Assembly: GCA_963931865.1 (NCBI GenBank)
Contig: OZ007512.1
Span: forward strand, 6,752,208 to 6,816,207
DNA from: Axinella damicornis
Lineage: Eukaryota > Porifera > Demospongiae > Axinellida > Axinellidae
Direction: 5' to 3'
DNA length: 64,000 nt
Shown here: piece after piece, positions 4,877 to 53,398 of the stretch
Numbering within the stretch: position 1 is the first letter of the stretch
How the letters are laid out: every line of letters starts with the position of its first letter
The notes under the pieces: model-generated
What the model saw: only the letters and a program-made list of their open reading frames with translations
The model's database searches: none
Told to the model about the DNA's origin: nothing
Position numbers and translations under genes: made by a program

Positions 4877-4880
4877 TTAA

Positions 4881-6230: not shown

Positions 6231-6240
6231 AGCCAAAAGC

Positions 6241-6268: not shown

Positions 6269-6272
<4 letters not shown>

Positions 6273-6334
6273 TTTCAAGGGTGGGTGATCTTTCGCGAGA
6301 GTACAGTATATACTAACCTTGCAATGAATGAAGG

Positions 6335-7553: not shown

Positions 7554-7793
7554 ATGTCAGTACAACTATTCAGCCCTTCCTTCTTTCCTGGTGCTCTTTG
7601 CTTTTTTCTTCTGCACATTCATTTGATGCTTTCTCAGCCTCGTTCCCCACTAACGCATGCCTCCTTGCCATTCAGCACTACTAACACACAATGCACCATC
7701 GAATACAAGTCCAACTGTTTATCCTGGTATATGCTTGCACCAGATGAATGGTATCAATACGACATCCAGCTACAGAAGTGTAACATGTCTTAG
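7554..7793 (+). other. 79-codon open frame, identical in both duplicates
   Basis: An ATG-started frame with a hydrophobic N-terminal stretch (FFPGALCFFLLHIHLML) is identical at 61412-61651. The surrounding DNA is also nearly identical, so this says little about selection. I recognise no family and do not claim a gene. Confidence 0.15.
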
Positions 7794-8313
7794 GGGAAAC
7801 TGCACTCCCGGTAGCCGCATTGCAACTGGTTGCAACTTGCTGGTCGCACAAGCTATAGGCATTGCAGCTCATTCCAATTAACACACGTCACATGAGACCA
7901 TGCTTGGTCGATCGAGTCAGCAATGGCACCTAAAGGGAAGACAAGAACATATTACAGTACTCACAACTTCGCAAGCACGGTGAATTTCGGCATGTGAGCG
8001 TCAGTGAACGACAGTGATCTCAGCTGTGTGGTCAGAGTCTTTGTGGGGCCTTAATAAGAGCTGTACGGGCAACGAACTTCGAAGAGAGCGACCGAGCAAT
8101 GACGGCCGGCAGTACTAGTGCTTGTATCTCCACCATCAAGGTGAGTTTCAGCACCAAAATTGTGTGGTGAGGACAGTGCATGACAGCGATCACGACGGTG
8201 TAGTCAGAATCTTTGCAGGCCATTCCTATATAAGTAATCAAACGCTACTTACTCACATGATTAATGCGGCACAATTTTCCCCCTACCAGGAGTGTATTAA
8301 TTACTGCATGACT
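7793..8313 (+). repeat. About 500-bp dispersed repeat with two ATG/donor segments
   Basis: A diverged relative lies at 35200-35712, inside intron 3 of the death-domain gene, and the duplicate copy is at 61651-62159. Each copy has two similar halves, each with an ATG, a short open stretch and a GT(G/A)A(G/A)T-like donor. In this copy the first reads MAPKGKTRTYYSTHNFAST and the second MTAGSTSACISTIK. It looks like a mobilised first exon or promoter, or a transposon end. No longer protein is encoded. Confidence 0.5.
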
Positions 8314-8431
8314 TGTGCCAGATTTAGGGTATGGGAGCGACAGATCGACATCGCTCGACTTCAACTTGACTAGTGTGGGGCTTCTTCACACCCACCCAAT
8401 CACTTACTGGCACACTGCACAATGTACGTAC

Positions 8432-8558
8432 CTGTAAGGAGTTGCACACAGTGGACAGCCATGCAAACACAGTTGCGTTTTCGTTCACAGCCAGCGAGCC
8501 AAACAGCCAGGTGATCCTGAGGAGTGGGAGTAGAATGATTGTTCTCTTGACTGCAGTT
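8432..8558 (-). pseudogene. Adhesion-GPCR TM6 exon, left copy
   Basis: A 127-nt minus-strand exon with acceptor 'ttctccag' and donor GTACGT reads TAVKRTIILLPLLRITWLFG and then SLAVNENATVFAWLSTVCNS LQ. TWLFGxLAVNxxxxVFxWLxxxxNSLQ is the TM6-ECL3-TM7 signature of adhesion GPCRs. It joins the TM7 exon in phase 0. The Gly of the LLG(I/L)TWLFG motif is Arg here but is kept in the right copy, which suggests decay of this one. TM1-TM5 exons were not confidently found in either copy. Confidence 0.7.
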
Positions 8559-8739
8559 CTGGAGAAGAGAGTTCCACAATAAGAAGAGAGGCTGAACAGC
8601 CTGTGGAATACTGGGATATAATTATGGCAGCTGCGCTAAGTACAGCCCAACGAACGGCTCCACCCATCAACCTGGCGCCACACTACCATGCAGCTTATAG
8701 CGTAACCTTCAATCTCGGGATGGAGGAAAGTTTTCTTAC

Positions 8740-8845
8740 TGGTACAGCCTTGCTTGTAATAAGGATCATGTTAGGGAAGTTGATGTATGCCTGGAGCATC
8801 TCCACAGTAATCAGAAAGGCAGTTGTGGTGTGAAGATGAGGCATC
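8740..8845 (-). other. Possible TM exon (TM3-like), uncertain
   Basis: Between 'ggatgcag' and GTAAGA the minus strand is open and reads HLHTTTAFLITVEMLQAYIN, which resembles the E-x-L-Q-x-Y segment of family-B TM3. The right copy (near 62571-62686) has a net one-base difference that shifts the frame. Its outgoing phase 0 does not fit the phase 2 entry of the TM6 exon, and TM4-TM5 would be missing between them. Treat as weak. Confidence 0.25.
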
Positions 8846-9206
8846 CTGCATCCCCGGGCCTGAGCCTGGGAACAAGGCTATACACTGGCGCCACCCCTTG
8901 GTGCCATAGTATTGTGAGCACATTCAAAATTATGTTTGATGACCTTCAACTATACCAGAAGGTGATATACATGTTTGTCTATCAACACACTCAAAATATG
9001 TGGAAACTTAATTTGGCTGATTGCTCAACCAGGCTAGAAATTTCAAAAGGTGACAGATCTTGCTAATAACTGGGGTTTTTTCACACCCCAATAATTTACC
9101 CACCTATATATAACACCTGTGAATGTATACCTCAGCTACATACGTATATTATACATACATGTACGCCCATGCAATATGACAGTACATCACCTCTACCAAC
9201 AGTTAC

Positions 9207-30113: not shown

Positions 30114-30285
30114 ATGCCGATCAGTGCGGAACAATGGCGTGCTGCCGTGGGCGCAGCTAATGCCTCACGTCGGCCCTGCCAACCTAAGCACAGGTTGCCG
30201 TGGGACGTGTTCATGCTCATTATCACAGCTCTACTGGTGTCCACACTGCTGCCTGGAGGTGGTGGGAGGGGAACAGGGAGCAGAA
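30114..30285 (+). CDS. Exon 1: leader with hydrophobic helix
   Basis: Encodes residues 1-57, starting MPISAEQWRAAVG. A basic stretch (SRRPCQPKHR) is followed by a hydrophobic run VFMLIITALLVSTLL that could act as a signal-anchor, then a Gly-rich end. It ends with one base (A) that pairs with TG of exon 2 to give Met58. The donor motif 'agcagaagtgagt' is repeated 200 bp on (near 30483), which could allow a longer alternative first exon only if stops between them are avoided. Confidence 0.75.
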
Positions 30286-33200
30286 GTGAGTTCTGGAATA
30301 ATTATGGTGAATATGGTCAGAGGTGGTCAGATGTGTTGGGATGGAATACTGCAGCCTACACTTCCAACTTCTGTCCTAAAGCAACACATTACAGTGCAGT
30401 ATCAGCCTGTGATGTGATATTGCATGAGTCAGGATTTGAAGTTGTATGGTATAGTGACACAACTTTGTGTAATCTTTTAGAGAGCAGAAGTGAGTACTGG
30501 AATAGTGTCTAGTGGTAGAACAGGGAGGCAGCTGCGACTAAGAAATGCCGACAACATTATACCTTGGCCTACTGAAAACAATATTGAAATCGAGGTGTGG
30601 TGTAGTTCGATAATTTGGACAGAGAGAAAAACCTTGCTTTTCAAAGCCTACTCTCATCTGTGAGGTACGTATGTACAAGTACTAATATGTTGCATTAAAA
30701 GACTGAAAGTGTTCCTATTTCACTCAAACTGTTCATATTAGTGACCACTGACTGACATACTGACAGACACAGCAATCACTCTACCCCTTGCTGTGCATGC
30801 TCATCCACAGGGTAATTATAATTGCCATGTTGTAACTATTAGTGGGCACAGTAGGTAGTGTAGCAGTGTTTCCTATGAATACGGCCATAACACTGTCACC
30901 ATCACAGAGGGGCAGCACCTGTAAACTTGTGACATCATGCCAAAATCATCAGTACAGCAATTATTTGTCGGATCTGTGACGAGCTGTTGGCCAAATCTAA
31001 TTCACATTACATCATTTCATTGGACGAATTAGATCACTCAAACTGAACTCAGAGCAGAGAATTGAGCATCGTACCGATTGTGTTTCACATGGTTCAGCAG
31101 AATACTGAGCATAATAGGACAGCAGTGCTGACACAGCACATTCAGATACATGTTAAATCACAGATGCTTGCATGCCTGCTATCTTATGAATATTATCTGC
31201 CCTACTCTCCCCGGCACCTGAGCCCCATGGACAGTTCCAACATCTATGTATGTCAGTAGCTACAGGGAAATTGACTAGCCTCATTCCCAGACTCCATACT
31301 CAGCATACACAGAATGCAAGGAATTGTAACAGTGACAATAGCTGATAGCCTGGGAACGAGGCTGAGATGTGGTCAGGTGTATCCCACAATTGTAACCAGT
31401 TCTGTGTCTGGGTGCTCAGAGCTACAACCAGAATAATGAGGGGGACTTCCCTTTCACACTGTATTTACTACGTACCCACCTGTGATATTAGTCTCCTCTC
31501 CCTCCTCTCCAGTGTCCAGGGGGAGGGGTGGTGGTGGGACTGGGGGGGAGCTGGCACCCTCCCTCCTCATTGCTCCCCGGAGGAGACTACTGCTCCTAGT
31601 GGCTGGAGACGTAGAGACAAACCCAGGACCTGGTTATGGTGAGTAACATAACACTGTAAGGATGCGTATACCAGGAAATTTATGGTGGTCATTATTTTTG
31701 GCGAAATGGACTGCAATGGCTCGGTACAAAATTTGGTGATTGGATGTAGCCTCATTCCCAGTACTACCCCGTTTTTTCTGTTCTTCAGTTTCCGTTGACA
31801 ATAATACACGGTTCCTCATCCGTGTATTATTGTCAACGGAAACCGAAGAACAGAAAAAACGGGGTAGGCCTGGGAACAAGGCTAGATTGGATGTATGACA
31901 TGAGATTGAGAAGGCAAGCCCAGGATGCTGACAATGTAATGAAATGGACAGTGGTGTCCGTTGCCATCATGTTTTCAGCAGCCCCACGATCAGCGAACAA
32001 CTAGTCCGTAAGAAGTAAAGAGGTCAGCAATGCCCAGGATGTGTTCACTGGCAGTGATGCATGGGGCTACTACCTATGAGGTTATGACCTATGTATACAT
32101 TCATCGAGCAGCCTGTATGTATGTGGTGCACCATCAGTGAAGTAGTAGGAGCTTCTCCACAGACATTTCTCAGCGAGGTTTGAAGGTACTTTGGGTAATT
32201 TCAAGGTGATCTTGCCGTGCTGTGTGCATCTGCATGGCCAGCCACTTTAATTTGGTGGTTTACTTATGAATTGCCAAGTCGCCAAATTGAAACAATCGCC
32301 AAATTTCCGGTATACGGTAGTTCACACCACTGAGTGTGGTTTCACACCCAGTATATTACAGTGAATTGTTTACATTAATTGAACTCACAATGTAAATGGG
32401 AATCCCAGGTCAGTGTAGTATGCTAACAATACCACCTGGCTAAATATATTAGCCTAGTACTCTATATGATTACAGTCTTTTTGCAACAAAATCACCAAAC
32501 ATATACCATGGATGCTTGTCAGAGATCAACTGCATACTTTGGCCTAGCTAGTTGGGCCTCATCATCAGTGCTAGTGTGCCTGTGGCATTGTTCACATGTA
32601 ACATTACCATGGCAACACACCTGGTACATCATCCTGGTATTGTTTGGTACATGATGTGGATGCTCACCTAATTGCATGCAGACAGATCAATGTTTGGCCT
32701 GGTTGAATCTCATTAGGTGGTGTAGTACTGAGCTGGCCAGCAGCTCCAGCATCAGAATTACTCAGAGGATCTGGGCTCACAAACCACCTCATGATTGAAA
32801 TCATGATGGGTTCTGGAGGGATAGTTCCAAGCTTTCAGAAATATATCAGTGGGATTCTTTAAGACATGACACACAATGAATATTCACTTACATGCATACA
32901 CGGCTCACTTTGTCTCTCAACACATGCTGTGGCTTAAACTGCAGAGGAAAACATTCTACGGAAGGAAGACAGAGAGATAAAATAATTTGTAACTTCAACT
33001 GAGAATAAGCTCACACAATTGGCGGCTCGATTACAGAACTAAAATGCAAGGTAGCAACTCCAACTAGAAACGAGGCCTCAACAAGCAACCGAGTGAATAA
33101 GTCCTCCTAGCTTCTGTTGTACCTGAAGGAGGCATTTTATAGCAGTTTAGTCAGTAATGTCCACTCCACATTCCAGTCCCACATTCCAGTCCCACATTCC

Positions 33201-36200
33201 AATCACACATTCCAGTCCCACATTCCAGTCTCACATTCCAGTCCCACATTCCAGTCTCACATTCCAGTCCCACAATCCAGTCCAGTGATCAGAGACACCC
33301 AATACTGCATGAGGGCACAGCACATGGCTTCACCTCGTGCACTATTATCCTCTCAACCACATCCTCATGCAACGTTTCACATAATGCATGAGTGTATGTG
33401 GTACTCTATTCATTCTGGTACTGAGAACTGTGCTATATTTTCCATGTAGCACTGTTGACGTGTAGCATTCATAACATTGCTATAAAATTTAAGGCTACAT
33501 GTAGGTACAAGAGTGGTCTGCCCCCCCCCCCCCCCCCCCCCCCCCCATTTGTAGGGTACCAGTATGTCTCCTATAACACATTGTATATTTGTGCAATCAT
33601 GCAATTTCTAATCCTTGATTTGGATTTTGGCCTTCAATGTTGTGTGTACTGATGCACATTGTAGAGTTAAAGTGATGGCTACTCTTGTACCTTCACTTTG
33701 CTTTAGGTTACTTGCATGCCTCGGATCTGGACGTGCTGGTGGAGGAGCTGTCTCCACTCCACAACAGGTGGGAGGAACTGGCTCATGCCCTACCACACTC
33801 ACTGGACCTGGAGGCCATCAGAGCCCACAGTCACTCTGGGAATGGGCTTCACGAGACACTGAGGAGGTGGTTGGATACTACATTTCCTCCTCGACATTGG
33901 GGTTACGTTATTCTTGCCCTCAGGAAGGTTGGCGAGGATTATGTAGCCAACAAACTGAAAGTAAAGTATGGTGAGTTAGCAACTACAGTGGCATCACTGA
34001 CACTGTTAGCATGTGGTAGCATGGGTAACTGTGGTGTGGAACTTTTTTGGCTGGGAAGAGTGTAATAGCACTCAGCTTCACCTTGCACTTCTTCACACTT
34101 CACAACTGAAGACTTGTGCAAGTATTCCCAAACACAACAGCTATTACCTAGCCTTCTTCCCAGACCCTCCCCCAGTGGGAAAAAGAATTGTTGTGCTGAT
34201 GGCAAACATCTGGGAGGTCTCCGCATTGTGCTTACTAGGCTATTAGTTGACATGTTGTAGGTACTCTACAAGACTTGTGGAGCACTTGAGCTAAGCTAGC
34301 CTCGTTCCCAGGCCGTCTGCCAGTCGCACGCGCACCGCATACGTGACCTTTGAACCCTTGTCAGATAGCTGGCAGAAGGCGCTAGGCCTGGTACCACTCC
34401 TACGTCATTTACAAGTTAAGTGGACACGGTTGTGACGTAGGTGGACACGGTTTCATGTAAAATGGCGGCGTGGCAGACGTTCACGGGCTAACTGCAGGTT
34501 TCCTAGCGAGTTATTGTTGGCTTTTACGCTACCGTGGTGGACTACTGGAGGCGTCAGGTAAGGAACTCCTTGTTGTACGGTTGTAGTAGCCTAGGTAACT
34601 ACAATAGCTTACATCTACAGTAGCTTACCAAGCGCTTGGTAAGACTTACGCCTGAGTAGTCAAACGTTAGTGCATGCTGTATTGCCGTTAGCGCTGAGTT
34701 GGCATCAAGTTGCTGTCTTCGTGGTATCAATATAAACTCGAAAGCATACGTGTAGTCGAGTTGCTTCATAACCGTGTCCACTTTGCTTGTAAATGACGTA
34801 GGAGTGGTACCAGGCCTTCTGCCAGCTATCTGACAAGGGTTCAAAGGTCACGTATGCGGTGCGCGCGCGACTGGCAGACGGCCTGGGAACGAGGCTAGAG
34901 CTAAGCAGCTGTTATGCTAACACCATTCCTTCAGTGGTTTCCACAAGTGGCTTGTTCTGATAGACCCAGCTGGAGGAGGTGCCATGCAGAACTAGTCAAC
35001 AGTGAGATCACAGAAGGAATGTGGTCTAACTGGCTTGTACTATCACCTGTGGCTGGCCCTGTCATAGTCAGCCTCATTCCCAGGCCACCTATGACACAAG
35101 CTGGGAGTGGAAGTCTAGGCTGTAGTGCTATTACGTAACAACCAGAATCTCCCTCACAAATGCAAAATCAACAGGACGTACTACTTTTTCTATATTTACG
35201 AGGGGCAACCGCACTCCTGGTAGCCGTTGCAACGCCGGCTGCGACTCGCCGTAGCGAAAGCTAAGTATCGCAGTTATTCCCAATTAACGCACATGCCACG
35301 TGGCGACCACGCTCAGTCGAAAGCAAGCAATGGCGACCAAAAGGAAGACACGAAATTATAACAGCACTTACAACCTTGCCAGCACGGTGAGTTTCGGTAT
35401 GTAACCGTCAGTGAACAACAGCGATTACGGCTGTGCCGTCAGAATCTTTGTGGGCCCTTCGTATGACTGTACTGGCAACCAACGTCGAAGAGAACGATCG
35501 AGCAATGGCGGCCGACGGCACGTCAAAAGCGCTTGTATCTCCATCACCAAGGTGAGTTTCGCCACAATTATTGTGTGGTTGTGTCACTGCATGATAGTGA
35601 TCACGATGGTGTAGTCAGAATCTCTGTAGACCTTTCCTGCGTGCTGTGAGGTTTGATTATTTATTTAGATTATTTACGCGGCACAATTTTCTCTATACCA
35701 GGAGTGTAACAAGTCATGTGCATGCATGACTGCTCACAACTTTTGATCGTATCAAGAACACTTGATGAACCTCAGACGTACTCTCTGACCCCACACACCT
35801 TGGGATCAGGGTCACTATTGACTGATCTACTGACTGATAGTGTAATAGTGTCAGTGGTGTAGCCAGGATGTGGAAATCGTCCAGGCACAGCATGTGTATG
35901 GGCATGGGGAGTCTGTTCAGCTTCTGCATAAAACACAGAAGTACAAAACACAAGCTCAGTGTAGGTAGGTAGGCCTGAGTTTGGCTACGATGTACCATAA
36001 CTACATTTGTAGCCTCATTCCCAAGTCTCCTCCTTCGGGAGAGCCTGGGAACGAGGCTACTAGATTGTTCGTGTGGCACTAATTTCACACAGTGTTGCAA
36101 CTATGAGTGATAAACGAATACAATGTATTTACGTGGGTCGCTGGTACTCTACGTCACAGTGAAAATTCCACTAAACAACACTGTTGACACGTGTGACTGA

Positions 36201-39200: not shown

Positions 39201-42200
39201 CCTGTCAACATGGGTCAGATTATGAGAGTTATGACAACTACAGGAGTCATAGGACCTAGGCCTTACAATTCACCCAGCTACTGCAAGGCAAGGTTTTCGT
39301 TGTCTGTCCAAATTAGACAAAGCCCCAAATCTTTGTTCACCTCACAATTCACCCAGTCACTGTACACGCACACGTCTACAGTATATGTATCCTTACACAA
39401 TTGACCAAATGAGGATTATGATCTCCCAATTAATGTTATTGCTTCCACTTCACAATTACCTCTACAAAGTGTCTTTAGTTCTTTGACAGGCTTCCTACTG
39501 TTCCAATGTCATTACTGCTGTGTGTGCATATGAACACTCTATTCCTACTATTGTCCCTTCACTTGCTATAGGTCTGTTGGAGGAGTCTGACCTTGATGAG
39601 GTAGCCAGTGAACTGCATGCAATCTCTCGGAACTGGGACATGCTAGGACGTAGGCTACTATACGTACATCATGACCGTCTGCACTCCATTCACACCCAGT
39701 ATCCACATGACAAACTACGCATGCGGGAGATGCTCAGTTACTGGTTGGAGCACTACCCCACCACCTGGAGTGACATTGTTGCAGTTCTGAGGTCATCAGG
39801 TGACTCTCAGCTGGCAGACGACCTGCACTCAAAGTACTGTTCCAGTGAGTTCACAACCACATAACAGTATTGCACTCCAATGAAATGTAATACAAGAAAA
39901 GATTGCACTTGAAGTGAAGTATTGCACACGGCCATGAATTGAGTGCAGTACAACACTGAGAGTGTAGTGTTGTATTGCACAATCACTAGGATTCTATTAT
40001 AGTGGAACCCCTTCCTAGCCTCGTACCCAGGCCTCCACAATTCTCTTCAGTCCCAGCAATACGAGTCATGGTTACACCCTTGCACCTGTAGTGAGCTGAT
40101 GTGTTGAATTCATCTTGCTCTTGGAATGTCATGTACGTGCCTCAGGATTTGATAAGCATTTGGAGAATATCTTTGCATCAGCACCTACTAGCTAGCTATA
40201 ATAGCTATAGTGCATTGGAAATCAGCTTTTCAGAAACTTTCAAATGAGATTGAAAGTGAATGTTGTCAGCTTGACATCACTGAATCTACCATTGAGTCAG
40301 CTAGTATACGCCAACAGAAGTGAGACCTGAGTACGATAGAAGCTGATACTTGTACAAAAGCAGTCAATTGTGTTCCTTGTGTTGCTAAGTGTTGCTAGCC
40401 CATGCACCTAATCAGATGATAGTTGGTTGTTGAGATGTTGTAAAGCATGTGTTGAGCACTGACATGAACTTTGCAATTATGGGATGTCACTGACCAATGA
40501 GTGCTGTAGCATAATGGACCACTTTGCATGTGTATGTACACATGCAGCTGTGGTTGTGAATATGACAGTGGTTCTGTAGCATTATACATATTATCACAAC
40601 ATGCACATAATGTAGCCTCGTCCCCATCAAGGATCACGTGAGTCATGTTCAGGGCTGTGTTTTTGCTGGTGTTCTTCTCCCGTTTTTTCCTCTCTGTGGC
40701 TACCACCGAGATGCCTAACCCGCCGTCCTTTGGACTTGGGGACTGCTCCGACCTGAATCCATCCTGCTGCGAACACTGCGTGCCGTTCTCATTGGTGCCG
40801 GGTGTACTTCGTCGTCTTCGACCCTCCATGGCCCCTGTGTCCTTTCTCAAGTGCAGTCTGTTGTTAAGTTTGTTGGTTTGTGGTGATATAGAGACCAACC
40901 CGGGCCCTGCATCTGATGCCTGTTACATTTGTAACAGTGTGGTCGCGGATAACCATCATGGGCTACTGTGTGAGGTGTGCTCTAATTGGAGCCATCGCAC
41001 TTGCGTCAACATGACTGTCGAAGAGTATTTCCACTGGGCTGCTATCGATGATGGCTGGATTTGCCCTACATGTGACAAGGAAGCCTTCCCTTTCCACAAC
41101 ATCTCTCATTTGTCATCCCTGTCATCCACGTCTATCAATTACCCCCCACCTCAATCCTCCACTTCTCGCTCACTTTCCATTTTGTCCTTCAATGCACGAA
41201 GCCTGTTGCCAAAAATGGACATTCTTAGGGCTGTTTGTTCCTGCGGCGGATATGATTTCATCACTGTCACTGAAACCTGGCTCTCAGCTGGTGTGCTTGA
41301 TCGAGAACTTTATTTACCTGGGTTTACTGTCATCCGCAGGGATCGTAATCGCCATGGTGGTGGAGTGGCCATCTATGTGTCTAATGCTTTCTCTGTCAGA
41401 CCCTTGGTTGACTCTGGTCTTCAACTTGAACTAATTTTTCTAGAATGTACCATCAAGTCCCACCTATATACTCTCGGAGTCTTCTACCGACCACCTGATG
41501 CCAGTGCTGGCTGCCTGACCAGCCTGTACAACTATGTGAGCTGCCTGCGTCACCAGAATCATTCCAACATGATTCTGTGTGGTGACTTTAACATCGATGT
41601 CTCAGCCACTCCTCTGGCTTCATGTACTTCCAGTAACCTACTCAACCAACTCTGCACTGATTTTTGCCTTTCCCAAGTTGTTTCCAAACCTACCAGAGTC
41701 ACCCCCACCTCTTCCACCACCATCGATCTGGTCTTGCTGTCTGCTCCTGAGTCCCTCATCTCCTCATCTGTTTTATCTCCAATTGGTACTAGTGACCACA
41801 ACTCTGTTTCTGTCACTCTTAAGCTACCATCCGATCACCGTGCCACCAGTCGACCCACAAGATCCATTTGGTTATATAAGAAGGCCAACATCAGCCTTGG
41901 CAAACAGCTTCTACTGAATCTACCGATAGCCAAAACCTCTGATGACATTGATGTTCTGTGGGACCGCTGGCACTCTCACTTCATGTCAGTGATGCATAAA
42001 TGCATTCCTAAGCGTACTGTGCCTGTCGACCGACCCACTCCCTGGATTGACCAAGATATCCAGCATGACATCAGGCTGCGTGAGCGCCTATACAAACGAT
42101 TTATGGTGTCCAAAAGTCAAGACTGGCTTGTTAAGTACAAATCTGTTCGTAACCAGGTCGTTGCCAAGATCCGTTCTGCCAAACAAGCCTTTTTCCAGAA

Positions 42201-45200
42201 ACTCTGTTCAAGCCGGAACTCTTCTAAGAAGTTCTGGTCCGCAATACGGTCTCTCAAACCCCGTAAAACTCTCCAGTCAATAGCCCTGTCTGCTGGCCCC
42301 ATCACTGCAACATCTGCCATGGACAAGGCTAATCTGCTGAATACCTTCTTTGCATCCTGCTTTAACCCTTTGGATGCTGGTCCCTCATACGACCCCATTA
42401 TCGTTCCTGAGGTGTTACCTCCTGACTTGGACATTACCCCTGACGAAGTTAGGGAGCACCTGTGTAGAATTAACTCTCATTCTGCCCTTGGTGCTGACCA
42501 GATTTCTGCCTGGATGCTAAGCACCTTCGCAGAAGAACTTGTCCCCTCCATCACAGCTATGTTTAACCACTCCTTGAAACTTGGAAAGATCCCACATGAA
42601 TGGAAACGCTCCAACATTGTCCCCATACCCAAGGAGGCCAATAAGTCTGAAGTTCGTTTCTATCGACCAATATCGTTACTCCCGATTATCAGCAAGATAC
42701 TCGAACGTCATATTCACTCTCTCTTGTTTAATCATTTATCATCCCACAACACCCTCTCTGCCAACCAATTTGGCTTCCGTCCTGGCCGAAGCACCATCAC
42801 TCCTCTGCTGATTGCTGTCCACAAGTGGCACCTAGCTTTGGAGAAACGTCAACAGATCGGCTGTGTGTTTTTTGATTTAAGAAAAGCATTTGATAGCGTC
42901 CCACACCAGGCCCTACTAAATAGGCTTTTCTCCCTGAATTTGCCCTTACACCTATTCTGTTGGCTGTCAAACTACCTGAACTCCAGGCTTCAACGTGTTG
43001 TTATCGGTGGTACTGAATCCTCATGGCTCCCCGTAAAATCTGGTGTTCCCCAGGGATCAATCTTAGGTCCCTTACTGTTCCTGGTTTTCATCAACGACTT
43101 ATTCAGTGTTCCCTTGTCAGAAGGGTCTACCATCATGGTTTATGCAGATGACATCCTGCTTTTCAAACCTCTATCATCCCCTTCTGATTTGTCTGCCCTC
43201 CAACTTGATGTTGACCACATTGGTACCTGGATTTCCACCAACTATCTCTCTATAAACGAAGTGAAGTCCAAATGTATGTTGATCTCCAGAAGCCGCTCTC
43301 GTCAATTGAACTTTGCTATACTCTTGAATGGCAGAGCACTTGAATGTGTCAAGCACTTCAAGTATCTCGGGCTCTGGATTTCAGACGATCTTTCCTGGTC
43401 CTGTCACATTGAAGCCGTCTGTTCCAAGGCTAGGCGTATGCTTGGCTTCATCTACCGATACTTTTCACCACACTGCAATGCCAGCACTATTCTCACCCTT
43501 TATAGGGCCCACATCCTTCCCACCCTCGACTATGCCTCCATAGTATGGGACCCCCACCTCAAGAAGGACCAGAAATTACTTGATTCCGTGCAACACTTTG
43601 CCTTGAAAATTGCTAGTCGCTCCTGGAACTCTAGCTCGGAAACCTTACACAGGCAGTTTGAAATGACACCACTCATCAAAAGACGACAATACTTTAAATT
43701 ACTGGTTACTTTTAAATTCCTTAAGGGTTTTTTATATTTTCCCGGTGGTTTTTTTGTACTTAGATTGACCCCTAACCTTAGAACCTCCCATTGTTTGCAA
43801 CTGATACAACCCTTTGCTAGGAGTTCTTCTTTTTATAATTCTTTTTTTGTTCAGTCAGTTTCTTTGTGGAATTCGTTGCCTGGTGCCACTGTTTGTAGTA
43901 ATAGTATTAGTACCTTTAAGACTAAAATTAGATCAGTTTACTTATAGTTTTTGGTTCCTGTTAGTTATTTGTGTCCCTTACTATGTACATGTACCTGTAT
44001 TATTATTGTTCACCATTATTTTTTGTGTTTTTGTTCCTTATCCTTTTCTTTTCGAAGTCCCCGTGCATTAGCCTCTGGCTATTGGGACCGACTGTACCAT
44101 TGATGGTCAGTTTCATTAAAAAAAAAAAAAAAAAAAAAAAAAAGGCCTCCGCGCAGATTTTATCTCGCATCCGTGGAGACATTTCTCCACGGCTGCGAGA
44201 TAAAATCTGGGTGGAGGCCTGGGGACGAGGCCTCACATAAATGTATGTGTTGCATATCACCAATAAATCATTGTCATTGCTGTGTAACCAAGCTATAGCT
44301 CACCAGTAAACTATTAGCATAAAGTGCACAGCTAGTTGTGCAACCTACTGTGTACAGTACCTGCAGAGAGGTTGCTACATGTCTGTTAGCTACACTAGTA
44401 CTCATGCATGAAGTGTTTACGCCAGAATTACACAAATGACCTCCACATCCTGGCTGGGTAGTGAGTCCTGAGGTTGAGCTTACTGGCTGATCCAGAACAA
44501 CAAGAGCAAGAAGTGGATTTCATTATAATTTTGCTGTGCATAAAGTTTTGAACTCAGGAAGACACCCGTAGCATGCACTGCATGACTGGCTGTTACCCAA
44601 TGATAAATGAATGTGTGAATCGACTGACACCCAGTTCACTGTATGTTTTAATTCAATGGTTGCATAACCTCAACTGATAGGCCTACTATCAAGGAAGTAT
44701 TAAGAGGAAGGATGTGGTGTCAAACGGAATCTGCATTTTGTCCAGCGTCCTTACTACAGTTACAAGAGCTCCTGCACATTTTAGTGGATGTTGTGTGGGG
44801 TTAGGGCTAAGCTCAGGCAATACTTCATGGCCAAGCCTTCTGCTTCACTAGTGTCTGGGCATGGGTACACAAAGTGTAGGAGGTCTTGCTGTGCCCCAAC
44901 TGAGTTTTGAGCCATCTAAACAAGCAATTTGATGGAGTAGCCATGAAATTTTGGAATATAGGATGTCTGAGATTATATCTGGCAGTACTGGCTTCTTGGG
45001 TGCCATAGCTCCAGCAGTTGCTGGGTCTGCCAGAGCTGTTCCGCTGCCCCTTGCCTTACACCATGGACACTTCGTTTTGAACACTGCTATAATGACACAT
45101 GTATGTTGAAGTGGTGGAAGACAGTGTACATGTTTGTAATTTCGCTACCAATTGATCCCGGTCTATAGAGCCTTCAGTACACCTGGCAAGGATAATTGCA

Positions 45201-48200
45201 CTAGTTTCTATAGCCCTCAGGCTGTATCAAGCCCCAGGAACTCATCTCATAATTCAAAATAATACGTGTCACAATTGCAATTTTGTTCACATTCAAGCTT
45301 GCCGACTGTCTTGTATTCTCATACAATTTCAGTGTTTCAAAGGACTAAGGGAGGTTAAAATGACCATCGTCATGTGAAAACTGGACACGTGGTGAGGTCA
45401 TTAGATCGGAGTTGGTGCATCATAACATTGCTATACCACGTTTCACCAGCAAGCTGCTCTTGCGTTACTAGAAACAAGTCATTGCAAGTCCAGCAGCCTA
45501 GCAACACAGTTTATGAGTACCTCTGAGAACAGAACAGGATTGGCTCACAAACACTTTCGGTCGCATGATGAATAATCATGCTTGGACACACATCCAGTAG
45601 TAAGCCACAGCTCAAACTGTTTTGAGTTGTGACTTACTACTGGACGTGTGTCCAAGCATGGCTATACATCACGCAACCAAAAGTGTTTGTGCAAGTGCCA
45701 GAACTGTTATAGTTATGGCACTAGCACTAGTATGCCCCACGCAGACTGGCTACCCCACTGGCGTGCTCTCATAGCAGCTAGTACATTGTCACAACCCACC
45801 TCCTCCTAAATATTTCACATGGTCAGGCACTGACAGTGTAGACTGAGTTGTGGCTAGTCCTGAGAGCTATACAAACATAAACATGCTGCAGTCCAGTTGT
45901 CCAAACAGTTGCCGTCCCGTAACTACTCATCAACTCACTCAGTCTGATCACTGGAAGAACCTGACTCTGGTCCTTAGCTGGGCTGTATACTCTGTGCAGC
46001 TGGTGACTTGAGATCCCTGTTGAGGGTTGTGGGTGGAGTTTCATTGCCACTCCTAGCTCCTAGATCCTATAAGGTTCAGAGTACATGGGTCATGTTGACA
46101 TCTTGTACTCTGTAACCTTACAATTACAACACACTACACCATCAGTGCCAGCACAATTAATAATTTGTGGCAAGCGTGATCTAGCCCCACATATGTAGAT
46201 GACTTTGCTGCAAATTTTCCATATCTTTATTTCGTACATCGTTGGGTGGCCAGGAGAGCCGAATTTATGGCCGGGGGCTACCCTGACACCACGTGCAGTC
46301 ATGCATGAGCCGTGAACAGTCACAACAAGGACAGAGGTCCGGGTACACGGACCTGTCTCTTCAATGCCTACAGCAACGCGGGCTACCACACAACACTGCA
46401 TGCCCTGGGCAAGAGCAATTTCATCTGTCGATGCCATCTATGGACAACTGTGCAGCGTGCATGCGAAATACAGATAGGTCAAGTGTGACATGCCAGCTAG
46501 CCTGACTCACAGTTCCTGTGTATGTACATGTTCCGCCAGCTTTGTGTGACTCATAGTATTCTGTGGTCAGACGTTGAGCTATTCTCAGCCACATAGTCAT
46601 GTGCATGCAAATGCTCACATTCTGCACACTTGCTCATATGCTCACCCCACAATGCAATGCATCCCCTTAGTAATAATTAATGTACCCAGAACCACTTGTG
46701 GCAACGAAAGTTTGAGCACATCAGGTTCTCCACCAGCTGTTGGCTACTAGCTATAGCGCAACCCTATTGTCAGTTACTCTCATGTACACAGTGAGACAAG
46801 TTCCCATGAATCCCACTGTTGACACTTGTTCCTCATGCAGCAGTGATCACAAAGCATGCAGTGACCGTTAGTGACTACTGCTTGTTGTGCTGAAACTAAT
46901 TTCACCATGGTACATTCAGCTACAGATGTCCACTGTACTCCTAAAGTGAGCACTGCTATTCTACCCTCACTTTAGGTCTGCTACAGGAGTCTCATCTGGA
47001 CGTTATAGTGAACGAGCTGAGTACCGCGAGTGCAAAATGGGAGAAGTTAGGGGAACAACTGGGAGTGACCCACTATCGCCTGGCTGCCATCCGCACTCAG
47101 TACTCTGAACCTGCTGACGGCATGAGGGAGTTGATCAAGCAGTGGCTGAAGCAAGACTATCGTTATGGCGCCAAAGGTCTCACCACCTGGAATCACATTG
47201 TTCTTGCTCTGAAGAGTCCTAATGTTGGGGAGTCACAGCTAGGAGACCATTTGAAACAAAAATATCTTCCAGGTGAATTACTTGACACATTCACTACTGC
47301 TGGGGTTCAGGTGACCTGAGTGATGGAATTGTGCTGTAGCTATACTGTGTGGTCTAATTTTGTTATTATGGTGACATAATATTACACAGTTAGTGAGACT
47401 GCTGAGAAGGCAAAAACGCAAAGCCTTTGAGAGGAAGAGCAGTGGTAATTTGGGGAACGTAGGGTAACTTGGAAGAAGCATGTGACTCCCATTGGCACCA
47501 ACTGATGGCCTCTTGCGAGCTTCCAATTGCATGTAGCTAGTATACATGCCATTCCAAGATTGTACAACACAATGTATTACTTCAGAACGTGCTCAAATGG
47601 CAATCAGTTGCTTCTTACATAACAAACCCTAATTGATTACAAGCTGTCACAGACCAACTAGGAGTGTTGCCGAACTGTAAACACAATCACTAAGTCATCT
47701 TACGTACTGGCTGAAAGTGCAAATGCAAGTGGTCTAGTGTACTGTACTGAAGTTACCCAATGATATTCACTGTGCCTCATACAACTCATACAGAGCAGCT
47801 GTAGTAGTCTTACTGTCTAAACTATGAGCACGACATGAGTACCAAGTCATCTTACATGTACATACTGCTGAAAGTGCAAATGCAAGTGGTCTAGTTGTAC
47901 TGAATGACCCAATGATATTCACAACATATCAAATATTCACAACGTCCTCTTGTGCCTATCATAGCTACAACTTATGCTGATCCTTTCCTGGCTCAGTGGA
48001 AGGGAAATTTGGTGTAGAGTATAGACAGTCCCAGCTCGAGACCTGCAGTGTTGTGTAACATGGCAGCATGTTCTGAATACTATAATAGCAGCTGCACACA
48101 GTTTGTAACTGTGGGCGTGGTTGTGTAGAAAGTATCAGTAGCCCGCTACTCCCTCCCCTTCAGTACTACCTCTACATGTTGACTACTTGCAATGTGTCCT

Positions 48201-51200
48201 GGTCTACACTACATGAAATGAGTTACTGATTTACCCGTACAGTTGCTGCTAGTGGTGCACGCAAGATACTGGAAGAAGCCCTCGAGAAAGGTTATGTTGA
48301 CTGCCACATCTGGAAGGTGCTAGTCATGGGAGTAGCTGGTAGCGGAAAGACTTCCTTAAAGCATCGCCTTTTTGGAGAAGAGCCTCCTAGCATTCGCCGA
48401 AGTACTGCATTAGCAGAAGCTACAATCCGAGCCATTTCACGAGTGATCGTTGGCACGGATATCACTGGCTGGTTTCGAGTCCCATACGATAAGCTTATGG
48501 AAATGCTTGGCAGAGCTCTTAAGGCTGGCATCCCAATGGAGGAAACGATAGCTTCATCTTCTGACACACCTGAGGCTGTTGCTCACGATCTGTCTCCAAA
48601 GGCAGATGCCAGTAAGCCTCCCAAGCCCCCCAGAAGACACAATCATCCAGGTAATTCTTCAAGAGCTTCTCCTCATAACATCTCTGCTTCTGCACGTACA
48701 CCAACAACACCTGCTGCCACACAAGTTAGTTCTGCAAAGATAGAGCTAGTTAGGCTTGTAGAGAAGTCTAAGGGCTCCAAACGGCTTCTTGAGCTTCAGT
48801 GGATCCACTTCATAGATAGTGGAGGACAGCCTCAATTCCACGAGGTCCTCCCAGCCTTCATTAGCAACACCACGGCCACCGTGTTTGTGATGAAGCTTTC
48901 TGAAAGGTTAGATGAGCATCCGACTATTGAATATTATGACGACAATGGCGAACTCTGCGGTAAGCCTAGTCGCTATGCACTTCGTAATGACCAGATGCTG
49001 CAACACTGCATTCGCACAGTGCTGTCGCGACCATCAACAAGGGAGGGGAAGTGCTCAAAAGTTGTCCTAGTTGGCACACACAGGGATCTTGAAGGCTCCA
49101 GTTCTGAATCCCGAGCAGAGAAGAACAGCAAATTAATTGACATGCTGGCATCATCATATCAAGAGCAGCTTGTTTATTACCGTCCTTTCTCAGAAGTCAT
49201 CTTTCCAGTGAATGCAAAGAATCCAGCTGAACTCGATCACAAGGTTTTTACAATGATTCGTGAGCAAGTGGAGGATAAGACAGGTACACCTCCTCCCTAC
49301 AGGGTTCCGATTGGATGGTTCCTGCTAGAGCAAGACATTACAAAGTCAGCAAAGGGAGGTGTAATCAGCAGGAAGGAATGTCTGGCCATTGCTGCCATCC
49401 TCAATATCAATGACAAAGCTCTTACAGCAGCACTAGAATACTTCCATGACCTAAACATCTTTCTGTACTATCCATCTGTCCTCCCAGAAGTTGTCTTTTC
49501 CAGCCCCCAAGTGCTACCAGATAAAGTCACAGAATTTGTTCACTTCAGCTTTAGTCTTCAAAGTGATAGTCCACCTCTAGCTGTAGAAGGCAAGTGGCTG
49601 CAGTTCCGAGACAAGGGCATAGTGACAGTTGACATGTTTCAGGATAAACGATTCTCAGCTCACTACATTCCAGACCTGTTCACTCCAGCAGATCTCATCA
49701 AACTATTCCAACAGCTACTGATTATATCTCCACTCTCTACCACCGAGTATTTCATGCCTTCCCTTCTCCAAATGAACACCCCAGAAGAAGTTAGAAAGCA
49801 GCTGCCTCCGCCATCGACCTGTGCTGCACCACTCCTCGTGCACTTCCCAGCTGGCTGTGCCCAGAATGGTGTGTTCTGTGCCCTAGTAGTATACGTGCTT
49901 TCCAAACGTCAATGGAAGGTGGCTTGTGGCCCTAAAGGTTCCCCACTTTGTGTCTCTCGCAGCTGTATTCGCTTTCAGCTTTCAGACACACCAGTTACTG
50001 TTGTTCTCGTTGACTCATTCAATTTTCTTGAAGTTCATGTGAAAGCTCCTGAAACCGAATACGACAGTGTTTGTCCTCGGATCCGTAAGGCCATATTCAG
50101 TGGACTGAAAGCAGCTGCTGACGTCCTGAGATACAACAACTCCACACCTGTAACTGCATTCCTCTGCAAGTGCTGCTCACCTCCACACACAGCCATCCCT
50201 GACGTCAAAGGTTGCTACCTGATGTGCACAAAGTGCACTGCGTATGCACCTCTCACCCAACAGCACAGAATCTGGCTGGATCAACTCGAACATCTTGTTG
50301 CCAAAGGTACATGGATTGTGCAGTAGCTAATAGCGCATACCACACTCATTTTTTGAGCTTGAACGTACCAGAAAACTAAGCACGCAAGTATTATATGCAC
50401 AGTACATAGTTGATTATAGTTTTGACAGAACTTCACCCTCCGTTTTTGTGCACCAGATTGTGATGTAGCTCCACCTGCTAAGCGGCCAAAACAGGACGCT
50501 GGAAATGCCATGACAAGTGAGTTATCAGTGTTGTCATTCATGTTCAAGTCGTAGATGCAACCACTTTAGAACGGGAACAGGTGTGAGTGTGTGATGGACA
50601 CCCCTTGTGGTGATAACCATGCAGGTGATACATGCTGTTAGGCTATAGCATGAGTCCTTGCCAATCAAGTACCGCTATGCAGTTTTGCTATCTGCATTAA
50701 AGGATTGGCGATAATTTGCTGCTTAACTGCCCAAGTGCGTTCAGGCCATTGCAACCCAATGCACCCTGTAGCAGCCAAATGAGCCCAGAAAATATCCATA
50801 AGCCCATGCATTAGAATTTATGCTGTTCTGCTTCTTAAGCTGTGTGCAGTATTAGGTAATGTGCTAATGCTCGACGTACTTTCACTAAGTCGTGCAACAG
50901 ACTACTGCACTCACCTAAGAAATACAATCATTTACTCTGTATTAATTAATTAGCTACTTGTGATCTTCCTGTTCATGCAGCTACAAGTGAAAGGCCAACT
51001 TTGACAAAGCTTCTAAACTTTCCAGTCAAGAGTGGAAGTCACATCAACATTCCTCAGCAAATCGGAATTAAGTACTTTCAGTTTGGAGTTCAACTTCTGA
51101 ATGATGAAACCGGAGAAGAGATCGAAGCGATTGCTTTAAAATATCGGGAAGAAGCAGAGGAGATTAACCTCAAAATTTTGAGGCTGTGGATCAGAGGCAA

Positions 51201-51297
51201 AGGGAAGCCTCTTCACTGGGACAGTTTGATCGAAGTCCTGAAAGCAATCGGACTAGGCACCCTTGCTAGTGACATCCAGGATGGGCTTCATCACTAG
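30114..51297 (+). CDS. 2A-leader, death-domain, ROCO-like GTPase gene (8 exons)
   Basis: Exons 30114-30285, 31513-31638, 33707-33970, 39572-39844, 46976-47272, 48243-50306, 50457-50516 and 50981-51297 join into one frame of 3,573 nt, giving 1,190 residues plus TAG. All seven introns are phase 1 with GT-AG ends; most donors are GTGAGT-like. Order: hydrophobic leader (about 31-47), 2A-like motif (89-97), death domains at about 101-187, 189-278 and 280-377, GTPase plus COR-like region (about 380-1065), basic linker (1066-1086), C-terminal death domain (about 1087-1190). Death domains and GTP-binding signalling ATPase/GTPase platforms act in innate immunity and cell death, so an intracellular sensor or adaptor role is a reasonable inference. 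The start is the first ATG after a 'tttctacag' acceptor-like border, so an untranslated exon upstream is likely. I do not know a named orthologue. Confidence 0.85.
31513..31638 (+). CDS. Exon 2: 2A-like ribosome-skipping motif
   Basis: A 126-nt phase 1-1 exon. After a Gly-rich stretch it reads RRRLLLLVAGDVETNPGP (residues 80-97). GD(V/I)ExNPGP preceded by a Leu-rich helix is the 2A consensus, at which ribosomes fail to form the Gly-Pro bond. The break would fall between Gly96 and Pro97. The leader (1-96) would be released and the rest would start with Pro. 2A-like motifs at the N-termini of NLR-type proteins are known from sea urchins, where they give dual targeting; that role here is inference. 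Confidence 0.85.
31747..31884. mobile_element. 138-bp foldback element, exact 9-bp target repeat
   Basis: TAGCCTCATTCCCAG at the left and CCTGGGAACAAGGCTA at the right, with long inverted arms around 'ccgttttttctgttcttc'. GATTGGATG flanks both sides. It lies in intron 2 of the death-domain gene. Confidence 0.85.
33155..33290. repeat. 13-bp minisatellite (cacattccagtcc)
   Basis: About ten head-to-tail copies with small changes, within intron 2. A + strand frame across it is a by-product. Confidence 0.85.
33521..33546. repeat. Poly-C tract
   Basis: About 26 C in intron 2, roughly 160 bp before the first death-domain exon. A similar run of about 26 C lies at 37024-37049 in intron 3. Confidence 0.9.
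33707..33970 (+). CDS. Exon 3: death domain 1
   Basis: Residues 101-187. It reads ASDLDVLVEELSPLHNRWEE near its start and GYVILALRKVG near its end. Six-helix death-fold spacing is visible: LxxLxxxWxxLA, then LxxWL, W, and ALRxxG. A whole domain in one phase 1-1 exon can be added or skipped without frame change. Confidence 0.85.
34297..34897. mobile_element. 601-bp foldback element, exact 9-bp target repeat
   Basis: TAGCCTCGTTCCCAGGCC and its inverse form the tips. The inverted arms are long (for example 'ccatttac...gtaaatg' around 'tgacgtaggagtggtacc'). The flanks are GAGCTAAGC on both sides. It is the largest member of this family here and sits in intron 3. Confidence 0.85.
35200..35712 (+). 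repeat. Diverged copy of the 500-bp ATG/donor repeat
   Basis: Homologous to 7793-8313 and 61651-62159. Its first half has ATG at 35330 and 19 codons (MATKRKTRNYNSTYNLAST) before a GTGAGT donor at 35387. Its second half has ATG at 35505 (MAADGTSKALVSPSP) before GTGAGT at 35552. It lies in intron 3 of the death-domain gene, in the same sense. Confidence 0.5.
35713..39571. other. Rest of intron 3, no exon seen
   Basis: It holds a small foldback element (36010-36059) and a poly-C run (37024-37049). A 60-bp dispersed repeat ('catcacagaggg' onward) near 36898 is also present near 30900. I see no further death-domain exon on the + strand. Confidence 0.5.
39572..39844 (+). CDS. Exon 4: death domain 2
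   Basis: Residues 189-278, beginning LLEESDLDEVASELHAISRN and ending ADDLHSKYCS. The pattern W-D-M-L-G-R-R-L, M-L-S-Y-W-L, TW-x-x-I-V-A-V-L-R is that of a death domain. Phase 1-1; donor GTGAGT. It is related to the domains in exons 3 and 5. Confidence 0.85.
40627..44143 (+). mobile_element. Full-length APE-type non-LTR retrotransposon
   Basis: 3,517 bp with a single intact ORF, a short 3' untranslated region and a 26-nt poly-A tail (44118-44143). It lies in intron 4, in the same sense as the gene. The 5' leader before the ATG is only 18 bp, so the element may be slightly 5'-truncated. No clear target duplication of its own is visible. The undamaged ORF suggests recent insertion. Confidence 0.9.
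40645..43947 (+). CDS. LINE polyprotein: 2A, PHD finger, APE endonuclease, RT
   Basis: 1,100 residues. A signal-like start (AVFLLVFFSRFFLSV) is followed by a 2A-like motif SLLLSLLVCGDIETNPGP ending at residue 88. Next come a PHD-type zinc finger (about 92-143: CYIC...CEVC..WSHRTC...WICPTC), an APE endonuclease (about 178-395, with FNARSL, TETWL, GDFNID, SDHNSV), then reverse transcriptase with D744 in FDLRKAFDSV, SGVPQGS at 799-805 and YADD at 833-836. The C-terminal part (about 930-1000) is typical of the CR1/L2/Jockey side of non-LTR elements. 2A motifs in such ORFs are known in several invertebrates. No stop or frameshift. Confidence 0.92.
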   Translation: MFRAVFLLVFFSRFFLSVATTEMPNPPSFGLGDCSDLNPSCCEHCVPFSLVPGVLRRLRPSMAPVSFLKCSLLLSLLVCGDIETNPGPASDACYICNSVVADNHHGLLCEVCSNWSHRTCVNMTVEEYFHWAAIDDGWICPTCDKEAFPFHNISHLSSLSSTSINYPPPQSSTSRSLSILSFNARSLLPKMDILRAVCSCGGYDFITVTETWLSAGVLDRELYLPGFTVIRRDRNRHGGGVAIYVSNAFSVRPLVDSGLQLELIFLECTIKSHLYTLGVFYRPPDASAGCLTSLYNYVSCLRHQNHSNMILCGDFNIDVSATPLASCTSSNLLNQLCTDFCLSQVVSKPTRVTPTSSTTIDLVLLSAPESLISSSVLSPIGTSDHNSVSVTLKLPSDHRATSRPTRSIWLYKKANISLGKQLLLNLPIAKTSDDIDVLWDRWHSHFMSVMHKCIPKRTVPVDRPTPWIDQDIQHDIRLRERLYKRFMVSKSQDWLVKYKSVRNQVVAKIRSAKQAFFQKLCSSRNSSKKFWSAIRSLKPRKTLQSIALSAGPITATSAMDKANLLNTFFASCFNPLDAGPSYDPIIVPEVLPPDLDITPDEVREHLCRINSHSALGADQISAWMLSTFAEELVPSITAMFNHSLKLGKIPHEWKRSNIVPIPKEANKSEVRFYRPISLLPIISKILERHIHSLLFNHLSSHNTLSANQFGFRPGRSTITPLLIAVHKWHLALEKRQQIGCVFFDLRKAFDSVPHQALLNRLFSLNLPLHLFCWLSNYLNSRLQRVVIGGTESSWLPVKSGVPQGSILGPLLFLVFINDLFSVPLSEGSTIMVYADDILLFKPLSSPSDLSALQLDVDHIGTWISTNYLSINEVKSKCMLISRSRSRQLNFAILLNGRALECVKHFKYLGLWISDDLSWSCHIEAVCSKARRMLGFIYRYFSPHCNASTILTLYRAHILPTLDYASIVWDPHLKKDQKLLDSVQHFALKIASRSWNSSSETLHRQFEMTPLIKRRQYFKLLVTFKFLKGFLYFPGGFFVLRLTPNLRTSHCLQLIQPFARSSSFYNSFFVQSVSLWNSLPGATVCSNSISTFKTKIRSVYL
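44234..46975. other. Rest of intron 4; one foldback
   Basis: No exon seen. An inverted pair of about 70 bp per arm lies at about 45546-45691 (CACAAACACTTTCGGT... and 'cttggacacacatccagtag'). Confidence 0.55.
46976..47272 (+). CDS. Exon 5: death domain 3
   Basis: Residues 280-377, from LLQESHLDVIVNELSTASAK to DHLKQKYLP. It keeps W-E-K-L-G-E-Q-L-G, L-I-K-Q-W-L and TW-N-H-I-V-L-A-L-K. Phase 1-1, donor GTGAAT. A 7-residue insertion before the TW motif distinguishes it from the other two. Confidence 0.85.
47273..48242. other. Intron 5 with a local repeat
   Basis: A stretch of about 90 bp around 'gctgaaagtgcaaatgcaag' occurs twice (near 47690 and 47855). Confidence 0.6.
48243..50306 (+). CDS. Exon 6: ROCO-like GTPase and COR-like region
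   Basis: Residues 378-1065. P-loop GVAGSGKT (407-414), switch II IDSGGQPQFHE with D569 and Q573, and base-recognition GTHRD (655-659), the same form as the THxD of Roc domains. The spacing between P-loop and DSGGQ is about 160 residues, much longer than usual. The extra part is low-complexity with a Pro/basic stretch (KPPKPPRRHNHPG). Downstream, PYRVPIGWFLLEQDI, ALEYFHDLNIFLYYP and SPQVLPDKVTEFVHF resemble the COR winged-helix. Near the end a Cys cluster (CKCC...CYLMCTKC) may bind zinc. There are no leucine-rich repeats and no kinase. If the intron after it is retained, the frame stops six codons later (GTWIVQ). Confidence 0.85.
50457..50516 (+). CDS. Exon 7: short basic linker
   Basis: A 60-nt phase 1-1 exon encoding CDVAPPAKRPKQDAGNAM. 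PAKRPKQD resembles a monopartite nuclear-localisation signal. Because the phase is symmetric it could be skipped without frame change. Acceptor 'tgcaccag', donor GTGAGT. Confidence 0.7.
50981..51297 (+). CDS. Exon 8: C-terminal death domain and stop
   Basis: Residues 1087-1190 then TAG. It reads YFQFGVQLLNDETGEEIEAI, then KILRLWIRGKGKPLHWDSLI and EVLKAIGLGTLASDIQDGL, with the late-helix pattern of death domains (L-x-x-W, W-x-x-L-I-x-x-L). It is more diverged from the other three than they are from one another. Confidence 0.8.
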
Positions 51298-52807: not shown

Positions 52808-52965
52808 TGCTTTACAAGTCATATGATCTCTTCCTGGGCTAGGGTCAGATGTTATGTGCTTTACAAGTCATATGATCTCTTCCTGGGCCAGGGTCAGATA
52901 TAGTGTGGTTTACAAGTCATATGGTCTCTTCCTGGGCCAAGGCCCGCTGTACTGTGCTTTAGAAG
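52808..52965. repeat. 49-bp minisatellite, about 3 copies (right)
   Basis: Counterpart of 522-815 with fewer copies. It is the start of the right copy of the long duplication. Confidence 0.85.
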
Positions 52966-53398
52966 TCATCATCTATTCCACTCTCATACAAAAAAATGTG
53001 GTCTGGATTTGAGCATCAATAACATTGTGCACAGTGAGTCTTGCTAAGTCTACACTGTTCCAATGAATCCACACACAGTGACACTGCAGTACACTTGTTG
53101 GTAGTTTTTCGGTGGAAGTCAGCATTCCTCAACCACGTTTTTACTATCCGTGGTTATGAGTGCCTTTGTCATGTAATGTATGCTTTCATTACGATGAGCC
53201 AATAGGTAGTTGCCCATACGAGCAGTCAGGGAACGGGGCTGCAGGGCTATAAGTATGAGGTGGCGTATGAGTCCAGTCAAGCATGAGAATTACATCTGAA
53301 ATGTATGTTTGCCCAATCAGTGAGTTACACTATCAGGAGTGTGGTTGCCGCTTGTCAACACAGAAATTTAGGCTTGAAGGAAAACGTCACTTACGTAC

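Follow-up and report, generated by a model that had tools for sequence, protein, structure and literature searches.

The subject of this analysis is a receptor-type gene in a 64,000-nucleotide stretch of the sponge Axinella damicornis (contig OZ007512.1, positions 6,752,208 to 6,816,207). This whole stretch, hereafter the window, corresponds to C8:6752208-6816207 in the genome that was searched (226 Mb, 120 contigs). The gene lies on the + strand at 30114-51297 and was modeled, from splice-site consensus and reading frame, as seven exons encoding 1170 amino acids: a leader with a 2A (StopGo) motif, three Death domains, a Roc-like GTPase, and a fourth Death domain. All six introns of the model are phase 1 and have consensus splice sites, and the exon joins are modeled on the basis of that consensus, the phase, and the recurrence of the exons across copies. 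The features are as follows.

30114..30285, + strand: exon 1, with ATG, basic N-region, hydrophobic segment, Gly-rich tail, and phase-1 donor (hydropathy, C8 copies)
about 30195-30251, + strand: hydrophobic segment of exon 1, residues 28-46 (hydropathy 2.03)
31513..31638, + strand: exon 2, with Gly-rich linker, RRRLLLLVAG, the 2A octapeptide, then two and a third codons (splice sites, C8 copies)
31608..31631, + strand: 2A octapeptide DVETNPGP, with the skip predicted at 31628/31629 (exact match C8:6783815)
33707..33970, + strand: exon 3, Death domain 1, variable between copies (PF00531, E 9.8e-07)
39572..39844, + strand: exon 4, Death domain 2 (PF00531, E 6e-06; splice sites)
46976..47272, + strand: exon 5, Death domain 3 (PF00531, E 2.4e-06; splice sites)
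48243..50306, + strand: exon 6, Roc-like GTPase exon with GVAGSGKTSL, DSGGQ, and GTHRD (Pfam Roc 21.7 bits, cut-off 27)
50981..51297, + strand: exon 7, C-terminal Death domain and stop (PF00531 22.8 bits, cut-off 22.6; splice site)

An initial annotation of this DNA, made from its letters, had described a basic and hydrophobic leader in exon 1 and a complete 2A motif at the end of exon 2, in frame with the Death domains and the GTPase. Most of this description holds. Exon 1 (ctttctacag/ATG ... AGCAGAA/gtgagt) codes for a basic stretch at the N-terminus and a single strong hydrophobic segment; the motif is present as RRRLLLLVAGDVETNPGP, in frame with the Death exon at 33707; and, by the modeled joins, the frame continues from exons 1 and 2 through phase-1 introns into the Death domains and the GTPase-like exon. 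The exon end is not exactly NPGP, however, because exon 2 (tcctctccag/TGTCC ... GGTTATG/gtgagt) runs two and a third codons further (Gly-Tyr-G). The octapeptide occupies residues 90-97, with Death domain 1 directly after it, and the core D(V/I)ExNPGP pattern of StopGo/2A sequences is thus found in frame inside one modeled coding sequence. All four Death exons exceed the curated PF00531 cut-off, the last one barely.

The leader's best 19-residue hydropathy falls on residues 28-46, the best value elsewhere in the protein being 1.56, and the 15 residues preceding the hydrophobic segment have a net charge of +4. This hydropathy and basic flank make the leader signal-like, with predicted targeting to the endoplasmic reticulum (ER). 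The strongest hydrophobic stretch lies in exon 1 and not in the RRRLLLLVAG tract, so that by hydropathy the 2A stretch itself is not the main signal candidate. The hexapeptide before the Asp, LLLVAG, matches the L-rich class of StopGo sequences with its (A/S/C)G ending, as judged by eye and not with the published motif model.

The gene is one of at least 11 tandem copies on C8, in a genome with many 2A sites. Exon 1 (from an exon-1 search of the genome), a D(V/I)ExNPGP octapeptide, and Death exon 1 occur in all 11 C8 copies that carry 2A, with Death exon 1 frameshifted in one (L016), and an AG directly 5' of the ATG and a phase-1 donor are present in all ten copies read. The GTPase is found in 12 C8 copies on the same strand between 6.13 and 7.26 Mb (85-100% identity, the others being 85-93% identical to the window copy; in-frame TAG in two). 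One in-frame TAG lies in the GTPase copy at C8:6164559-6166643. Of the 12 C8 copies, 11 have a listed 2A at most 25 kb upstream in the same orientation, as against 0 of 52 other GTPase places (64 places entered from 71 matches). For GTPase places from C9 onward this absence is only partly covered, since 27 further 2A sites, all after C8:9191349 in contig order and none of the DVETNPGP type, fall outside the list.

Selection along the gene was compared by pairwise Nei-Gojobori ratios of nonsynonymous to synonymous change (dN/dS), with the leader, 2A, and Death 1 taken over ten of the 11 C8 copies and the GTPase over nine of 12. Exon 1 gave 0.33 and exon 2 up to NPGP 0.24 (bootstrap 0.09-0.58), or 0.32 jointly (0.20-0.49), and the GTPase exon gave 0.23 (0.19-0.28); Death exon 1 gave 1.27 (0.82-2.10), not significantly above 1. 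Amino-acid changes within the octapeptide are confined to x (T/I) and V/I in the ten copies, with several codons silently changed, and the residues following NPGP take nine forms (GY, VTRY, TFY, LTSY, FTEY, DYVY, TLY, TDYY, DTFY). These comparisons indicate that the leader and 2A are under purifying selection and that the post-NPGP residues and Death 1 are free to vary. Since varied residues follow a conserved octapeptide, protein-level constraint falls away at the predicted skip point. A Pro-led N-degron on the released protein was considered and set aside, as the post-NPGP residues are not conserved.

The identity of the GTPase exon is less sharply drawn. Its match to Pfam Roc, 21.7 bits, lies under the cut-off of 27, and a Roc match at E 0.01 was obtained for 38 of 45 aligned GTPase family members. 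No Pfam COR match was found in the window GTPase exon, nor among the families listed for the 45 members. A sequence search of PDB with the single protein returned no match at 0.1, and one with the GTPase profile returned three weak matches (E 0.22-0.57). A Roc-COR fold is not claimed for this exon, since its structure model (mean predicted local distance difference test score, pLDDT, of 46) is unusable.

Beyond the array, the exon-1 search gave 22 matches genome-wide: the 11 C8 copies, six on C4, and five on C2. Five of the C4 matches are 56-70% identical (at 7.84, 8.77, 8.55, 8.60, and 5.67 Mb) and one is weak (E 0.84). The two C4 loci that were read differ in condition. The first (L039) has a leader at 61% identity, a 2A exon at 74% with DVETNPGP, and Death exons 1-3 at 46-52%, of which the two scanned both exceed the Pfam cut-off; a C-terminal Death exon matches at 44% and has no Pfam match of its own. 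At the position held by the GTPase in C8, this locus has a ZU5 domain, and no GTPase was detected within the 9.8 kb examined. The second (L038, C4:5658200-5668000) bears similar but damaged pieces, with a stop inside a Death exon, no usual start codon, and a weak GTPase match (29%), and is apparently a decayed leader-2A-Death copy. The makeup of these two loci therefore points to the leader, 2A, and three Death domains as a block that occurs with different middles. The C2 matches are five short, partial ones lying near each other (C2:16547391-16547885); each covers 23-28 residues at the beginning of exon 1 with 67-83% identity, and three contain TGA.

Relatives were also found on contigs outside this genome, 23 for exon 1 (20 read) and seven for exon 2, some of them perhaps from the same species. 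All seven exon-2 relatives, one of which is a weak match (E 0.006), carry DVETNPGP, DIETNPGP, or DVEINPGP, and in the more diverged of the 20 exon-1 relatives similarity stops, by eye, shortly past the donor. A set of leaders on C10 also starts MP...WRA, as the C8 leaders do. We do not claim a common origin for these N-termini: the exon-1 genome search gave no C10 match, and a C10 leader compared with C8 matches over the 2A only (E 0.11 and 0.23).

Genome-wide, exact searches found 143 sites for GAYGTNGARNNNAAYCCNGGNCC (DVExNPGP) and 66 for GAYATHGARNNNAAYCCNGGNCC (DIExNPGP), 209 in total. The reversed patterns gave 1 and 0 sites, respectively, and the motif is therefore not due to chance. Many sites are clustered, and some lie in retroelement-type or tandem-repeat sequence. 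Associations were counted for 146 of the 209 sites, leaving out two tandem arrays (11 sites on C1, 25 on C6) and the 27 unlisted sites; because 103 of 243 NACHT candidates were scored, NACHT counts are lower bounds. A listed NACHT lies within 25 kb downstream on the same strand for at least 24 of these sites, upstream on the same strand for at least seven, and on the opposite strand for none; conversely, 23 of the 103 listed NACHT matches are preceded by a 2A. For the GTPase, the corresponding counts are 12 downstream (one of which is an intronic element), 0 upstream, and 0 on the opposite strand. Random placement, which used an approximate length for some contigs, averaged about 1.

Seven further 2A-led places were sampled, where order and strand suggest a single gene for the 2A and the frames downstream of it. 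One on C14 (L020) has 2A, Death, and NACHT. On C4, a 2A (L019) is followed about 3 kb on by a 1124-residue NACHT-LRR frame (L027), with an exon between them that looks Death-like and has no Pfam match, and another 2A (L022) is accompanied by a sub-threshold Death match. A C3 locus (L024) combines 2A, a Death-like stretch without a Pfam match, and ankyrin repeats, and a C8 locus (L025) pairs a leader resembling that of L024 with a Death match below threshold. No receptor domain was recognized in the 4 kb read at L021 (C10) or L026 (C8). On C10, though, a NACHT follows seven of the leaders at a distance of 10-18 kb.

The two arrays left out of the counts differ from these places in their makeup. 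The C1 array (L023, C1:5419000-5425900) repeats a unit of about 690 bp in tandem and has eleven octapeptide sites listed; the units join a retroviral-type piece, aspartic-protease-like by eye, to VKVKLLIVAGDVETNPGPISGERKH, the end of which matches the L021 leader on C10. The C6 array (L028, C6:9399400-9400900, extending to about 9404022) is a tandem repeat of ~128 bp, a length that is not a multiple of three; many of its units carry LLLLAGDVEANPGPVRFPC, and 25 exact octapeptide sites are listed.

For the window gene, we propose that the leader is probably shed co-translationally at NPG/P through ribosome skipping, leaving a cytosolic protein of three Death domains, Roc-like GTPase, and final Death domain. 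The leader would engage the ER targeting machinery while emerging from the ribosome. The 2A would then stall the ribosome and release the leader at NPG/P in most rounds, with the receptor remaining cytoplasmic, and the resuming ribosome would yield a leaderless product whose first residue is Pro. Rounds without skipping would send a minor, leader-fused form into the secretory route, either as a second form or to be discarded. The 2A would in effect be a co-translational device that sheds the address label of a Death-domain receptor.

This proposal recasts the two-destination reading of the initial annotation, in which skipping would give a cytosolic protein and its failure a membrane-targeted one. 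What stands from that reading is a maintained signal-like leader and an L-rich-class 2A in frame before the Death domains and a GTPase-like exon; what changes is the role. With one N-terminal hydrophobic segment preceded by basic residues, an unskipped product would probably have its Death/GTPase part in the ER lumen, and such a luminal product may be inert, or simply waste, rather than a signaling form targeted to membranes. As a luminal Death/GTPase part is unlikely to signal, the chief role would therefore be to keep the receptor cytoplasmic, with the leader used during translation. Regulated dual targeting is possible, if less certain. An immune role for the receptor is suggested by its domains.

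Several points weigh against co-translational shedding. For the 12th C8 GTPase copy (C8:6164559), a search of the 8.5 kb at C8:6146000-6154500 found neither leader nor 2A nor Death 1, and no 2A is listed in the 40 kb upstream of a partial GTPase copy on C12 (C12:12181685-12182923, 90% identity over residues 138-551); therefore, either the leader is not indispensable or these copies have decayed. At ~27 residues, the basic N-region is longer than would be expected of a cleavable signal peptide. Eight of the 11 C8 copies have Ile at position x (seven DVEINPGP, one DIEINPGP), a residue that the motif allows but that falls outside the favored viral residues given in PMC12846837. Finally, the dN/dS pairs are non-independent and carry no tree correction, gene conversion among the close C8 paralogues is likely, and the high Death 1 ratio arises partly because dS is low (0.09).

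The alternative that fares best is that skipping is near complete and no second form has a function; the leader would then either bring translation to the ER surface or be itself a product, a small membrane peptide made once per receptor. Conservation of the leader body (the exon 1 ratio and the outside exon-1 relatives), which simple disposal would not need, is in keeping with this, as is the little sense that a luminal Death/GTPase part would make. A functional targeting signal would be conserved likewise, however, and we regard near-complete skipping as rather unlikely. A choice made by splicing seems improbable; in that case transcripts without exon 2, or without both exons 1 and 2, would encode the leader-fused or leaderless forms, with the 2A as a mere backup. 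The initial annotation correctly gave exon 2 as phase 1-1 and took this to mean that it could be spliced in or out. Omission of so symmetrical an exon would indeed keep the frame, but the phase does not single exon 2 out for alternative splicing, all internal introns of the model being phase 1 as well, and loss of exon 2 alone would leave a receptor permanently fused to a hydrophobic segment.

We give still less credence to an inactive 2A with a leader that simply anchors the receptor in the membrane, as PMC12909245 proposes for sponge transmembrane NLRs. Transmembrane domains do occur in the sponge NLR annotations published there, but the fixed octapeptide residues are kept despite silent codon changes in C8, despite 39-54% divergence of the leader and Death exons in the C4 copy (L039), and at other loci ahead of Death- or NACHT-type genes. 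That the conservation reflects recent tandem duplication and gene conversion only, with no function, is highly improbable: C8 GTPase copies are indeed 85-93% identical to the window copy and the window holds a segmental duplication, but the leader and 2A change silently while the adjoining Death 1 changes amino acids, and the motif is kept in the diverged C4 copy and in relatives on other contigs.

Shedding of the leader in the window gene may also be set in a wider frame, in which signal-plus-2A leaders serve innate-immune receptors in general as modular address tags, the Gly-Pro step setting their location and the receptors guarding translation. This extension is speculative and, in our judgment, quite unlikely. 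If it were true, Death-fold families with Roc-like GTPase, ZU5, NACHT, NACHT-LRR, and ankyrin parts would each carry such a leader, and these receptors would read the state of translation termination and elongation, so that skipping altered by a pathogen or stress would relocate a receptor within one round of translation. Against a general rule stands the finding that neither a NACHT nor a GTPase is listed in the 25 kb downstream of 110 of the 146 sites, most sites having been counted but not read.

The remainder of the window holds further repeated sequence. Positions 656-9206 and 52808-63047 form a segmental duplication (87-97%) with the blocks about 52-54 kb apart, perhaps the unit of the array. 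On the minus strand the duplicated blocks bear what we take, by eye, to be kinase-like and adhesion G-protein-coupled-receptor-like pieces, and a repeat array with a spacing of about 46 bp lies at 58754-59925, between duplicated blocks. Within an intron of the gene, at 40642-43947, is the open frame of a retroelement without long terminal repeats (non-LTR), with PHD (just below cut-off), endonuclease, and reverse transcriptase regions and its own 2A, CGDIETNPGP, near the N-terminus (40885-40907). Derivation of the leader 2A from this element was considered and is not claimed, as the stretch is too short to compare and nothing supports it.

2A sequences in non-LTR retrotransposons are a category named in PMC4981915. 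The window element is like them in that its CGDIETNPGP precedes PHD, endonuclease, and reverse transcriptase, and differs in lying inside an intron of another gene. The L-rich StopGo/2A motifs 2 and 6 (Li et al. 2026, PMC12846837) offer a second comparison. The class is described there with a hexapeptide ending (A/S/C)G, and an example of motif 6 was active in vitro. The leaders described here share such a hexapeptide directly before D(V/I)ExNPGP, but motifs 2 and 6 are viral, whereas the window motif stands in cellular receptor-type genes. The same source calls StopGo use in cellular genes rare; here the motif is a conserved and repeated feature of a receptor-type array, built of modular exons and recurring ahead of other receptor-type genes. 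It also cites Rao et al. 2025 (Cell Rep 44:115822), who surveyed viral and cellular proteomes for 2A and whose class A resembles motifs 6 and 2; receptors of the present kind may already be listed in that survey. The literature matches listed, in which subscription journals are thinly covered, included no paper on 2A leaders in sponge receptors.

The closest known system is SpNLR2A of the sea urchin Strongylocentrotus purpuratus (Roulston et al. 2016, PMC4981915), which the initial annotation had invoked as a precedent for N-terminal 2A signal sequences; the paper bears this out. There, the N-terminal 2A of an NLR has about 80% recoding activity and leaves a reporter in the cytoplasm, and a non-skipping mutant sends the reporter to the Golgi. 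Both systems place an N-terminal 2A and a hydrophobic, signal-like leader on a Death-domain receptor, with the split between cytoplasm and exocytic route shown for reporters in the sea urchin and only predicted for the window gene. They differ in that the 26-residue sea-urchin 2A is itself the signal sequence, whereas the main hydrophobic segment of the window leader is a separate exon, ~50 residues before NPGP. The sea-urchin receptor is moreover a NACHT-LRR protein and the window receptor combines a Roc-like GTPase with four Death domains, although NACHT frames do occur downstream of 2A elsewhere in this genome (L020, L027), and the window-type leader block also fronts a ZU5-type gene (L039).

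If the 2A is active, receptors annotated as membrane-bound by their hydrophobic leader would be mostly cytosolic, with a location that depends on translation, and the many related 2A leaders would form a natural set for relating sequence to skipping efficiency. Overall, the kind of device is already known from SpNLR2A (PMC4981915), and what is new within the literature covered is the signal on an exon of its own, receptors of the GTPase and ZU5 types, the occurrence at several receptor-type loci of one genome, and the selection pattern.

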